Made by a program: the position numbers and the translations under genes | Part shown: one piece after another, positions 13,766 through 37,665 of the stretch | How positions within the stretch are numbered: position 1 is the first letter of the stretch | Layout of the letters: the number at the start of each line of letters is the position of its first letter | Virus record (IMG/VR): IMGVR_UViG_3300034110_000147 | Span: 1-37,665 of that record | DNA: 37,665 nt | Strand: one strand, 5' to 3' | Source: a virus | The notes under the pieces: model-generated | Told to the model about the DNA's origin: nothing | What the model saw: the letters and a program-made list of their open reading frames with translations, nothing else | Database searches by the model: none

Positions 13766-13794
13766 TAGACCGTAGCAAGAATACTGTTTATAAT
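13766..13794 (+). promoter_or_regulatory. Sigma70 promoter P1 (first small-gene unit)
   Basis: The -10 box TATAAT is at 13789-13794. A weaker -35 box, TAGACC, is at 13766-13771 with a 17-base spacer. Transcription would start about 13801 and run through the 43-base repeated leader into the 73-residue gene. Confidence 0.7.
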
Positions 13795-13830
13795 AAACAC
13801 ATACAGAGCAATAACGCTCAAACAACGTGA
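13788..13830 (+). repeat. 43-base direct repeat, copy 1 (promoter -10 and leader)
   Basis: Identical over 43 bases to 14501-14543. It begins with the -10 box, contains a small hairpin (GAGC/GCTC, loop AATAAC) and ends just before the ribosome-binding site. The middle unit keeps only the two ends of it (TATAATAA and ACAACGTGATAAGGTACTAC). Confidence 0.9.
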
Positions 13831-13844
13831 TAAGGTACTACAAT

Positions 13845-14066
13845 ATGAAAATCGGAAGCATCGTAAAATCATTAGACTTCGCACACATTGAAACAATGTT
13901 TGTTATTGGTGTGGTTAAAGACATCGACCATGCAACAAGCACAATCGTTTTGGATGTTATCGAATGTTCAGAAGGCTACCGCGTAGGGCAGGAAGTAGTT
14001 ACTGCAATGCAAGGACACAACATGATGGATTTCATGGGTGAGCGAGTTACTGTAATCCAAGAATAA
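13845..14066 (+). CDS. Small early protein, unknown function (73 residues)
   Basis: Begins MKIGSIVKSLDFAHIE and is predicted beta-rich, with an alternating hydrophobic pattern (MFVIGVVKDI, TIVLDVIECS, ERVTVIQE), like a small SH3-type or OB-like barrel. Small phage proteins starting with a similar G-x-IVKSLDF pattern are common in aquatic T4-like phages, but no function is known to me. The ATG at 13845 is chosen over an in-frame GTG at 13827 because TAAGG lies 9 bases before it. First of three plus-strand units, each with its own sigma70 promoter. Confidence 0.8.
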   Translation: MKIGSIVKSLDFAHIETMFVIGVVKDIDHATSTIVLDVIECSEGYRVGQEVVTAMQGHNMMDFMGERVTVIQE

Positions 14067-14079
14067 TTTTTAAAAGGTG

Positions 14080-14108
14080 TTGACGTATACAACTCAACAC
14101 CTTATAAT
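14080..14108 (+). promoter_or_regulatory. Sigma70 promoter P2 (second small-gene unit)
   Basis: TTGACG at 14080-14085, a 17-base spacer, and TATAAT at 14103-14108. A near-consensus host promoter located 14 bases after the first small gene. Confidence 0.88.
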
Positions 14109-14141
14109 AACTGCATACACAACGTGATAAGGTACTACACA

Positions 14142-14462
14142 ATGAAAACAGCAGCAATGAAAGCAATGAACACAGTGACAGTTCAAACAGCAGTTGTTGG
14201 TAAAGAATACGTTTTATTCTACATTTACAACCCATGTAGAGGCAACACTAAAAACAATCCAACACATCCATGTCGCGTAACTGTTACTAAAGTAGGCCGT
14301 CTCAATATCAAAACGGATAACAACATCACAATCAAGCCAGATGGTTTGTTCCAACTCATGGAAGTGGAAGAAGCTAAAGTGTACTACCGCGAAGGCTTCA
14401 AACGTTTCAAAAATGATTATCGCACTCAAGCGCAAATTGATCAGTATGTAGAAGAACTTTAA
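14142..14462 (+). CDS. Small early protein, unknown function (106 residues)
   Basis: Starts MKTAAMKAMNTVTVQ. The central part VGKEYVLFYIYNPCRGN and HPCRVTVTKVGRLNIKT is beta-rich with one cysteine in each. The C-terminal third is helical and charged (YYREGFKRFKNDYRTQAQID), perhaps nucleic-acid binding, though nothing specific supports that. The ATG at 14142 follows AAGG at 14129-14132; an earlier in-frame GTG at 14124 has no ribosome-binding site. The ribosome-binding region is nearly identical to that of the first unit. Function not recognised. Confidence 0.8.
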   Translation: MKTAAMKAMNTVTVQTAVVGKEYVLFYIYNPCRGNTKNNPTHPCRVTVTKVGRLNIKTDNNITIKPDGLFQLMEVEEAKVYYREGFKRFKNDYRTQAQIDQYVEEL

Positions 14463-14478
14463 TTTTTTAAAAAAGTTG

Positions 14479-14507
14479 TTGACAAGGTATAACCAACGCC
14501 TTATAAT
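14479..14507 (+). promoter_or_regulatory. Sigma70 promoter P3 (third small-gene unit)
   Basis: TTGACA at 14479-14484, exactly 17 bases, TATAAT at 14502-14507: a perfect consensus sigma70 promoter. Expected to be very strong and active early, before phage factors are made. Confidence 0.92.
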
Positions 14508-14543
14508 AAACACATACAGAGCAATAACGCTCAAACAACGTGA
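14501..14543 (+). repeat. 43-base direct repeat, copy 2 (promoter -10 and leader)
   Basis: Second copy of the repeat at 13788-13830, with the same -10 box, hairpin and leader. It diverges just at the ribosome-binding site (here GAAGGAAC). Confidence 0.9.
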
Positions 14544-26723: not shown

Positions 26724-27100
26724 GTCATTCAGAAGACCAAGTTATGGCATTCGTTGCTGTTATCGCGGAAGTGTGTCACGAAGTTAACCGGGCATACTGT
26801 GAAGCGATTGGTGACTTTACTGTTTCTTCATGGCCAAACACTATTGAAGAAACTAAAAACAATATCTACAAAGGTGTTGTGTTCCGTTTAACGAATCCGT
26901 TTTCAAGCCCGAAAGACATGCACCAGAACTGGATGAAAGACAAAGTCCGTGATGGTTGGATTCACGGCCCGGTTAAGTCAGAAGAGTTTAGAACTCACCC
27001 TTGTATTATTGCTTATGAGCAGTTGCCTGAAGCTCAACGAGTTAAAGACAACCTGTTCATGGCCACAGTTGATTCATTAAGAAAAGTTTTTGGAGTTTAA
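26720..27100 (+). CDS. RyR-domain protein
   Basis: A 126-residue protein consisting essentially of one RyR domain, the unit first described in ryanodine receptors and also found in bacteria and phages. The core is MHQNWMKDKVRDGWIHGPVK followed by THPCIIAYEQLPEAQRVKDN (about 72-112), matching the N-W-x-x-x-K-x-x-x-G-W-x-x-G...K-x-THP-x-L...L-P-x-x-x-R-x-K-D pattern. In prokaryotes the domain is thought to bind nucleotide-type ligands, but its phage role is not established. It is translationally coupled to regA (ATGA) and followed by folE. Confidence 0.8.
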   Translation: MSHSEDQVMAFVAVIAEVCHEVNRAYCEAIGDFTVSSWPNTIEETKNNIYKGVVFRLTNPFSSPKDMHQNWMKDKVRDGWIHGPVKSEEFRTHPCIIAYEQLPEAQRVKDNLFMATVDSLRKVFGV

Positions 27101-27101
27101 C

Positions 27102-27800
27102 ATGAGTAAGACGGATAGAAATTTAGGTGAACTGGTACACAAGCATTTATTGGATAAAGGTGTGGAAACGCCAATGTCTACCAGTATCGCGTCGCCTACT
27201 GGTGAAGCTCGTAAAGAAGAAGCGAAAGACAAGATCGAGTACCACATGGAACAAGTCATGTTGGCCTTAGGTCTTGACTTAACAGACGACTCTTTAGTTG
27301 ATACGCCTAAACGTATTGCTAAGATGTACGTTGAAGAACTGTTCTACGGTTTAGATTATGACAACTTCCCTAAGTGTACCACTGTTGAAAACAAGATGGA
27401 ATACGATGAGATGGTTGTTGAGCGTTGCACTGTTAAGTCAGTATGTGAGCACCACTTTGTCTATTTCGGTACAGCACACAACACTGAAAAACTTGGTTGC
27501 TACATCGCCTATATGCCAGGTAAGAAAGTTCTAGGTCTCAGTAAACTGAACCGCATTGTGGACTTCTTCTCACGCCGCCCTCAGATCCAAGAACGTTTGA
27601 CGTTGCAAGTTGCATACGCATTACAGTTCATCTTAGGTACTGAAGATGTGGCTGTTGTGATGAAGGGTCAGCATTTCTGTGTGTTAACTCGTGGCGTACA
27701 AGATGCGGATAGCAACACTGTGACGTCTTACGTTGGTGGTAAGTTCCGCGAAGACCACAAGCTGAAAGCTGAATTGATGTCTTTAGTGAAGTTTAGTTAA
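27102..27800 (+). CDS. folE: GTP cyclohydrolase I (FolE)
   Basis: A 232-residue enzyme that opens GTP to 7,8-dihydroneopterin triphosphate, the first step to folate and to 7-deazaguanine (queuosine) compounds. The family's key pieces are present: DTPKRIAKMYVEELFYGL near 67-84, VKSVCEHHFVYFGTAH (C115, H118), YMPGKKVLGLSKLNRIVDFF near 137-156, RRPQIQERLT, and GQHFCVLTRGVQ (C193, third zinc ligand). The ~45 N-terminal residues are variable. No queD, queE, queC, dpdA or folate gene is seen next to it, so the pathway it feeds is not shown here. The start at 27102 follows TTGGAG. Confidence 0.95.
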   Translation: MSKTDRNLGELVHKHLLDKGVETPMSTSIASPTGEARKEEAKDKIEYHMEQVMLALGLDLTDDSLVDTPKRIAKMYVEELFYGLDYDNFPKCTTVENKMEYDEMVVERCTVKSVCEHHFVYFGTAHNTEKLGCYIAYMPGKKVLGLSKLNRIVDFFSRRPQIQERLTLQVAYALQFILGTEDVAVVMKGQHFCVLTRGVQDADSNTVTSYVGGKFREDHKLKAELMSLVKFS

Positions 27801-36022: not shown

Positions 36023-36585
36023 TGTTAAAACAACGTGGCTCGGCATTAATTGCCTTAATTTGTGTGGTTCTTGTTATTGTAGCAGTAGGCATGACACTGT
36101 TGTCATACGCTAACCGTGCAGTAGAGTATGAACAAAATATCAACAAGTTTGACAAAGCATCTCAAAATACTCTGTCAAACTACACACTGAAAATCACTGA
36201 AATGTTCGAAGTTCCGGCTGCTTATGTAGCAGACTTGAAGTCAGTTGTTAGCGCAACTTTCCAAGGTCGTTACGGTGCGGATGGTTCTCAGGCAACAATG
36301 CAGTGGATTAAAGAACAGAACTTGCAATTTGACTCTTCTTTATACAAAGAGCTTCAAGTGACCATTGCATCTGGCCGTGACGAGTTTAAAGCATCACAAG
36401 ATCGTAAGTTAGAAATCTGTACTCAGTACGATATCTTAACTGCAAAGCCAGTGAGCAAGTTCATTCTTAGCATTGTTGGCTATCCTTCACTTGACGTCCA
36501 GGATAAGTGTCGTATTGTGTTAGACCAAGGTACAATTGATACTTTTAAAACAGGTATCGCTAAACCAATCAAGCCGCGCGGATAA
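36022..36585 (+). CDS. LemA-like membrane-anchored protein
   Basis: A 187-residue protein: one N-terminal transmembrane segment (SALIALICVVLVIVAVGMTL) then a soluble helical domain. The order RAVEYEQNINKFDKASQNTL, YTLKITEMFEVPAAYVADLK, FQGRYGADGSQA and LQVTIASGRDEFKASQDRKL fits the LemA-type four-helix pattern seen in phages. In bacteria, LemA is an inner-membrane protein of unclear function. The ATG at 36022 overlaps the previous stop (TAATG) and has AGGAGA at good spacing; an ATG 6 bases earlier overlaps that ribosome-binding site and is less likely. A terminator overlaps its stop codon. Confidence 0.72.
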   Translation: MLKQRGSALIALICVVLVIVAVGMTLLSYANRAVEYEQNINKFDKASQNTLSNYTLKITEMFEVPAAYVADLKSVVSATFQGRYGADGSQATMQWIKEQNLQFDSSLYKELQVTIASGRDEFKASQDRKLEICTQYDILTAKPVSKFILSIVGYPSLDVQDKCRIVLDQGTIDTFKTGIAKPIKPRG

Positions 36586-36595
36586 CGCGGCTTTT
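36571..36595 (+). terminator. Intrinsic terminator at the end of the LemA-like gene
   Basis: AAGCCGCG (36571-36578) / CGCGGCTT (36586-36593), loop of 7 bases, continuing into TTTT. The stop codon (36583-36585) is in the loop. Confidence 0.85.
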
Positions 36596-36612
36596 CCTCT
36601 AAGGAAATTATC

Positions 36613-37476
36613 ATGAATCGCTATAAAGTAATGAACGGCATAGGCCGCGAAATCCAGTACACTAAGATTGAGTTTAGTGACGGCACTCATAACATCCTTA
36701 TAGACACTCCGAAAGAAGAGTTGTTTGAAAACGGTGACATTCTAATCACTGTTCCAGCAGTTTGTCCAGACGGCTTTGATACAGTGTTATGGGATCTGCT
36801 GTTGCTCGAAAAGGCGTTAGAAGGGACATACAACTCATACAGAATAGATGTTAAGATTAGTCTTATATTCGAGTATCTGCCTAACGCAAGAGCGGATCGT
36901 CGTTTCACTGCTAACTCGACTACGCCTCTGAAAGTGTTTGCCAATGCAATTGAAGAACTAATTAATCCTGTCAAGGTGTATGTTGTCGCACCACACAATG
37001 CAGACGCACTACCATCTCAATGGTTAGTGGATAACGTCACACCATATAAGAAACTGCTTAGTGGTGTAGAACATGATGTTGTGGTATTTCCGGACAAAGG
37101 TGCAGCAGGTCGTTTCAAAGACTTAACCAAGAAGCCTGTGGTTATATTCGACAAGGTTCGCAACGTTGAAGATGGTAAAGTTGTCGGAACTAAAATCGAA
37201 AGTGCTGTAGGCGTTATACAAGCAGAGAAGCCATTACAATTTGTCATCCTAGACGACATCTGCGACGGTGGTCGTACATTCACTGAATGCGCTAAAGAGC
37301 TGAGAAAAGAATATCCAGACTGTCATATCACATTATGTGTGGCACATGGTATTTTTTCTAAAGGGTTAGGCGTGTTTAAGGGCTTGATCAATCGCGTAGA
37401 AGCATGTAATATTGTTGGCAGTTACACAACGAGAGTAGACATTGCTACTTTCAATCACATTTCTAAATCTAAATAG
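36613..37476 (+). CDS. prs: Prs-like pyrophosphokinase (PRPP synthetase, or ADP-ribose pyrophosphate synthetase Adps)
   Basis: A 287-residue enzyme of the ribose-phosphate pyrophosphokinase family (cellular Prs is ~310). Visible pieces: YLPNARADRRF at 89-99 (the YARQDR segment), the metal-site-like VVAPHNADA near 124-132, VVVFPDKGAAGRF at 156-168, IFDKVRN at 178-184 (the catalytic Lys/Arg loop), and the ribose-phosphate loop VILDDICDGGRT at 211-222. The family transfers pyrophosphate from ATP to ribose-5-phosphate. Phage members next to a NadV-like gene may instead act on ADP-ribose (Adps of the NARP1 anti-defence pathway). The next gene is NadV-like, 11 bases away. AAGGAAA precedes the ATG. 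Confidence 0.9.
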   Translation: MNRYKVMNGIGREIQYTKIEFSDGTHNILIDTPKEELFENGDILITVPAVCPDGFDTVLWDLLLLEKALEGTYNSYRIDVKISLIFEYLPNARADRRFTANSTTPLKVFANAIEELINPVKVYVVAPHNADALPSQWLVDNVTPYKKLLSGVEHDVVVFPDKGAAGRFKDLTKKPVVIFDKVRNVEDGKVVGTKIESAVGVIQAEKPLQFVILDDICDGGRTFTECAKELRKEYPDCHITLCVAHGIFSKGLGVFKGLINRVEACNIVGSYTTRVDIATFNHISKSK

Positions 37477-37487
37477 GAAATTATACT

Positions 37488-37665
37488 ATGTTACAAATCA
37501 ATCCAGTATTTAAAACAGACTCTTACAAACTGAGCCACAAAGGTTTTATGACCGAAGGCACAGGCATGATCTACAGCAACTGCACAGCACGTAACGGCAA
37601 ATATCTTCCAGTTAATAAAGAAGACTGGGATGGCAAGGTTGTTTGGTTCGGCTCACAAGCAATGT
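37488..37665 (+). CDS. nadV: NadV/NAMPT-like transferase (5' part; window edge)
   Basis: Only 59 residues are present. NPVFKTDSYKLSHKGFMTEG and TGMIYSNCTARNGKY match the start of nicotinamide phosphoribosyltransferases (TDSYKxxHxxxxP... YSxxxxR). Phage homologues regenerate NMN from nicotinamide and PRPP, or in the NARP1 pathway (Namat) join nicotinamide with ADP-ribose-pyrophosphate to give NAD+ directly. It follows the Prs-like gene by 11 bases with AGGAAA as ribosome-binding site, so the two form an operon. Confidence 0.85.
   Translation, partial: MLQINPVFKTDSYKLSHKGFMTEGTGMIYSNCTARNGKYLPVNKEDWDGKVVWFGSQAM

Follow-up and report, generated by a model that had tools for sequence, protein, structure and literature searches.

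A probable NARP1-type NAD+ reconstitution operon at the end of a T4-like phage contig

RESULTS AND DISCUSSION

Gene content and organization of the locus

The stretch of DNA analyzed here (the window) is the entire virus record IMGVR_UViG_3300034110_000147 (37,665 nt). At its 3' end lie two adjacent, codirectional genes of the Prs and NAMPT/NadV families, which very probably constitute a NARP1-type operon for the reconstitution of nicotinamide adenine dinucleotide (NAD+). NARP1, a widespread system, was reported in 2024. The pair and the signals around it are arranged as follows (window coordinates).

36571..36593, listed on the - strand: GC-rich hairpin where the upstream gene ends, a possible weak terminator or attenuator ahead of the pair (consensus scan only)
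36602..36611, + strand: leader AGGAAATTAT, a ribosome-binding/leader element 5' of the adps-like gene
36613..37476, + strand: adps-like gene of the Prs family, complete (287 aa, ATG to TAG), predicted ADP-ribose pyrophosphate synthetase
37475..37484, + strand: second copy of leader AGGAAATTAT, 5' of the namat-like gene and overlapping the adps-like stop codon
37477-37487: spacer between the two genes (11 bases)
37488..37665, + strand: namat-like gene (NAMPT/NadV family), of which the first 59 codons are present, up to the contig end

An initial annotation of this DNA had described a complete Prs-family gene followed after 11 bases by the start of a NAMPT/NadV gene, and its coordinates proved to be right. 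The two products matched PHROG_619 (ribose-phosphate pyrophosphokinase; E value, 1.4e-52; residues 13-284) and PHROG_448 (nicotinamide phosphoribosyl transferase; E value, 1.8e-11), respectively. As the window covers the virus record in full, the truncation of the namat-like gene, which the initial annotation had regarded as a potential objection, represents an assembly limit and not a mutation; the gene is cut by the contig end only.

An exact copy of the ten-base leader AGGAAATTAT precedes each gene, and these two are the only ones in the window (expected number, 0.11). The promoter scan yielded nothing usable (9 sites versus a chance expectation of 7.4). Likewise, no copy of the T4 late motif TATAAATA was found near the pair; the four copies in the window are all located on the other strand, three of them directly upstream of structural genes, and two copies are expected by chance. 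No PADLOC model matched the pair.

It is very unlikely that the pair has decayed and is nonfunctional in the window phage. Such decay could be hidden in the second gene, of which only part is visible and in which a later frameshift or stop codon could follow. However, the first gene is intact, keeps its catalytic-site motifs, and yields a confident full fold (see below), while the second gene is uninterrupted and conserved up to the contig end, and leader AGGAAATTAT is common to both.

An Adps-type member of the Prs family

The AlphaFold model of the 287-aa protein (predicted local distance difference test [pLDDT], 93; predicted template modeling score [pTM], 0.88) matched solved Prs structures over the full length (VIA Z of ~19; 240-253 residues at ~3 A and 15-23% identity). 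The description of this protein as shorter than and divergent from cellular Prs in the initial annotation agrees with our measurements. The open frames of 13 housekeeping Prs comprise 313-351 aa, and the 287-aa protein scored 57.6 bits against TIGR01251, which is under the curated cut-off of 113, while housekeeping Prs scored 363-428 bits. Hidden Markov models (HMMs) of Adps and of housekeeping Prs, both trained without the window protein, gave 190 and 30 bits, respectively, for this protein, and the order was reversed for the 13 housekeeping Prs (125-157 and 511-580 bits).

When 72 Prs-like proteins were placed in a tree (quick search, with the Shimodaira-Hasegawa-like approximate likelihood ratio test [SH-aLRT] as the only support), the window protein had a long branch (1.24) and was placed in an 11-row group (SH-aLRT, 97) together with proteins of Rheinheimera phage Barba19A, Pseudoalteromonas phage H101, Vibrio phage Thalassa, and ICP1 (L018). 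The 16 housekeeping-type Prs occupied their own side of a branch (SH-aLRT, 98), with the window protein outside. Hence, the protein does not show the clustering with genuine phosphoribosyl pyrophosphate (PRPP) synthetases that the initial annotation had named as counterevidence, but falls into an Adps-type group that includes NrsA of ICP1. A housekeeping ribose-phosphate diphosphokinase is disfavored by this position outside the housekeeping clade and by the TIGR01251 score.

The motifs NARADR, APH, FPDKGA, and DKVR, which from family knowledge we take to be those of the Prs catalytic site, are all retained in the alignment. In Prs, the loop DDxxDT[AG]GT binds the 5-phosphate of ribose-5-phosphate; at this position, the window protein has the Adps-type loop DDICDGGRTF. 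A loop ending in [TS]F was present in 173/173 Prs-like proteins and in 0/13 housekeeping Prs, and GG occurred within the loop in 155 of the 173. The loci of these 173 proteins were fetched via other genes or via Namat, and the motif was not used for their selection; the DDICDGGxTF-type signature was derived in this analysis and is not a published criterion. We infer that the altered loop may leave space for the AMP part of ADP-ribose.

An IMG/VR search with the single Prs-like protein returned no relatives; the NAMPT fragment and alignments found more.

A probable Namat-type second protein

Phage relatives of NAMPT split into two clades, Namat and Nampt, with an SH-aLRT of 100 for their separation. 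The 59-aa fragment grouped with the Namats of Barba19A and locus L001 (SH-aLRT, 100), to which it is 73% and 78% identical, respectively, over its 59 aa. The placement of both proteins on trees, as proposed in the initial annotation, thus assigned the first to Adps and the second to Namat. The same assignment of the fragment was obtained from the Namat-minus-Nampt HMM difference, which was calculated on an N-terminal, fragment alignment with the close relatives of the window kept out of training (these score +27 to +43). The fragment scored +28.2 bits; all 260 Namats were positive (lowest, +2.9), and all 88 phage Nampts were negative (highest, -17.9). As far as it is readable, that is, judged on 59 residues, the second protein appears to be of the Namat type. 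This supports the choice of NARP1 over a NARP2-like system (NadV plus NadM) made earlier, and NARP2 is disfavored by both the HMM difference and the tree. No NadM or other nicotinamide mononucleotide (NMN) adenylyltransferase was found among the annotated window genes, with some open reading frames (ORFs) unsearched and most of the genome outside the fragment.

Residues D11 and Y13 of the fragment correspond in the alignment to Asp13 and Tyr15 of the nicotinamide pocket of SPbetaL1 Namat. In the clamp loop, Namats have either an Arg or a stacking residue preceded by Lys/Tyr (PMC12774641), and the sequence N36-G37-K38-Y39 of the fragment represents the Lys-then-aromatic form; as some Nampts are similar there, the loop alone does not discriminate. 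A Namat-specific adenine-clamp motif, a helix whose third and seventh positions are aromatic, has also been described (PMC12774641). It reads GSFTSQYLSRD and GSYTCQYLTRD in the full-length relatives from Barba19A and L001, respectively, and the pattern GSx6[TS]RD was present in 253/261 Namats and 0/88 Nampts.

Pairing of the two genes across loci

A Prs-like gene was located near Namat in 76/80 viral loci found through Namat and near phage Nampt in 1/80 loci. Three annotated phage Nampt loci have an adjoining NadM/Nudix or adenylyltransferase gene instead. The sole Nampt-type locus with a Prs-like gene (L323:1662-2588; 87.6 bits) may represent a genuine NMN-route pair or else a hybrid.

Namat-type genes were also detected in many bacterial genomes (L114-L172; Acinetobacter, Marinomonas, Caulobacterales, and others) and were very common in Acinetobacter within the sample. 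In those inspected, an Adps-type gene was usually located directly upstream.

These distributions bear on ordinary salvage by the NMN route, in which a PRPP synthetase and a nicotinamide phosphoribosyltransferase would produce NMN, to be completed by a host adenylyltransferase or, as in NARP2, by a phage NadM encoded outside the fragment. Both proteins belong to the families of those enzymes, the first has the Prs fold, and the database names agree; moreover, Namat-type genes occur on bacterial chromosomes too, e.g., in Acinetobacter. Since PRPP can also serve as a substrate of Namats in vitro (PMC12774641), ordinary salvage retains a small probability. We nevertheless consider it improbable, as the tree, the HMMs, and the loop all set the first protein apart from housekeeping Prs, the fragment is classed as Namat, and phage Nampts rarely have a Prs partner.

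Comparison with known systems

The characterized anchors for comparison were ICP1 NrsAB and SPbetaL1 Namat. The anti-Nezha pair NrsAB of ICP1 (orf228/orf229) has the same two-gene order as the window pair, and the Adps proteins belong to one supported group (SH-aLRT, 97). The nrsAB genes are needed for plaquing on Vibrio cholerae with the Nezha SIR2-HerA system and raise NAD+ during infection (PMC11559045). Thus, counterdefense against SIR2-HerA has been demonstrated for ICP1. Unlike the window phage, ICP1 is not T4-like, its Namat is on a different tree branch, and the Adps proteins share only ~33-35% identity.

The nearest annotated Namat (73% over 59 aa) is that of Rheinheimera phage Barba19A (gp034-gp033), whose Adps falls into the same 8-row group as that of the window (support, 89). 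The gene order is identical, the gap is 9 bases compared with 11 in the window, and the Barba19A Namat has the clamp motif. In contrast, the Adps proteins are ~32% identical, and gp035, annotated as a macro-domain protein and located directly before the pair in Barba19A, is absent from the window.

SPbetaL1 Namat has been characterized biochemically and structurally (PMC12774641), and its structures were matched by sequence to PDB entries 9w5w/9w5x. Its Asp13, Tyr15, and clamp-loop position are the counterparts of D11, Y13, and K38-Y39 in the window. However, it belongs to a distant Namat branch and has Arg40 in the clamp loop, in place of the Lys followed by Tyr seen here, as described for Bas63.

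NARP2/KVP40-type systems (NadV plus NadM) have the NAMPT superfamily and the presumed purpose in common with the window pair. They differ in belonging to the Nampt clade, in the GG-x-LL type sequence that occupies the clamp position, and in having no Adps partner; a NadM/Nudix or adenylyltransferase neighbor takes that place in three annotated examples.

Macro-domain genes, as observed in Barba19A, were found within 3.5 kb of 43/136 distinct phage Namat loci, compared with 12/68 Nampt loci and 2/80 bacterial Namat loci, and in 14 loci such a gene lies between Adps and Namat. Compared with Nampt loci, this is a modest enrichment (P = 0.04, unadjusted), and some loci were selected through Adps. 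Examples include the following.

L012:6681-7184: macro-domain gene, Barba19A gp035 (no Pfam match; annotation and similarity to others)
L014:4828-5301: macro-domain gene, Thalassa gp184 (PF01661 above the cut-off)
L102:7518-7979: macro-domain gene (PF01661 above the cut-off)

By analogy, macro-domain proteins beside NARP1 may supply free ADP-ribose. RyDEP reportedly supplies free ADP-ribose in phage DyoEdafos.

Proposed mechanism and strength of the NARP1 assignment

The two genes are in the Adps and Namat branches, they are paired, and the Adps catalytic-site motifs are intact. From the characterized relatives, the reactions and the antidefense role are likely to be those of NARP1. Adps would move pyrophosphate from ATP onto ADP-ribose to form ADP-ribose pyrophosphate (ADPR-PP), which Namat would then couple to nicotinamide, producing NAD+ directly. 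As these reactions would return the products of host NADases to NAD+, the infected cell could survive long enough for phage production. In vitro, the SPbetaL1 NARP1 system and a bacterial homologue convert ADP-ribose plus nicotinamide to NAD+ (PMC12774641), and mycobacteriophage NARP1 does likewise (PMC13232231); given the activity of these relatives, the same route from ADP-ribose and ATP via ADPR-PP is likely for the window pair. The proposal in the initial annotation that this phage counters NAD+-depleting immunity is supported by analogy with such relatives, ICP1 included.

Several observations weigh against the NARP1 assignment. About 88% of the second gene lies beyond the contig end, including the selectivity helix and most catalytic residues, and the use of PRPP by Namats in vitro, described above, would also be compatible with salvage. 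In addition, the Adps is only ~32% identical to its closest characterized or annotated relatives. Adps outpaces Namat in divergence in several pairs (e.g., 41% versus 68% identity between Barba19A and L001), and as it evolves faster than its partner, its substrate could have drifted. One version of this idea is that the fast-diverging Adps sub-branch of the window now acts on a different substrate derived from ADP-ribose, such as ADP-ribose freed from a cyclic or conjugated immune signal or still bearing a portion of it; the pair would then turn a specific defense signal, and not only ADP-ribose, into NAD+. We regard such a shift as highly improbable.

If the NARP1 assignment is accepted, the T4-like window phage joins the carriers of a known, widespread counterdefense system, and its novelty is low. 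Of broader use are two cheap sequence tests, the DDxxxxxx[TS]F loop and the N-terminal Namat/Nampt HMM difference, which tell NARP1 apart from both cellular Prs and NARP2, truncated contigs included. Many NARP1 pairs are still named "ribose-phosphate pyrophosphokinase" and "nicotinamide phosphoribosyltransferase."

Carrier genome and accessory position of the pair

According to PHROG matches, the window is a fragment of a T4-like myovirus. It encodes the gp23 major head protein, head maturation protease, portal, and tail sheath, as well as the large terminase, clamp, clamp loader, Dda helicase, DNA ligase, and gp32. The nearest cultured phage by gp23 is Pseudomonas phage pf16 (77%). The segment after gp32, which bears the adps-namat pair, appears to be accessory. 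Locus L303, with a gp32 60% identical to that of the window, has no Adps or Namat gene after gp32 across the available 4.5 kb, and pf16 has a NARP1-type pair ~9 kb past gp32 on the opposite strand.

L304:23345-25832 (pf16 106344-108831): NARP1-type pair of pf16, clamp motif GSYTYNYSTRD

The pf16 Namat belongs to a different supported branch from the window fragment. As the pairs are also not syntenic, the two related phages probably gained them independently.

The same enzymes could instead serve mainly to recycle ADP-ribose and nicotinamide from phage-made processes (ADP-ribosyltransferases, DNA ligase, and turnover), which would be of benefit in slow-growing or NAD-poor hosts, with counterdefense being secondary. 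NARP1 pairs do occur on bacterial chromosomes (PMC12774641), and macro-domain genes are common at phage NARP1 loci, as reported above. However, the accessory, nonsyntenic position in relatives also resembles that of an arms-race gene, and a primarily metabolic purpose seems unlikely, although less so than the other alternatives considered here.

Additional features of the window

A FolE-like GTP cyclohydrolase (PHROG_2197) is encoded at 27090-27800 and may belong to a deazaguanine or folate pathway whose remainder would lie outside the fragment. A cluster of short ORFs on the + strand (13788-14543) lies amid structural genes on the - strand. A 43-nt sequence is repeated exactly in this cluster (13788-13830 and 14501-14543), and a 30-nt leader repeat precedes the ORFs (13822-13851 and 14119-14148); the arrangement resembles repeated promoter/leader units.
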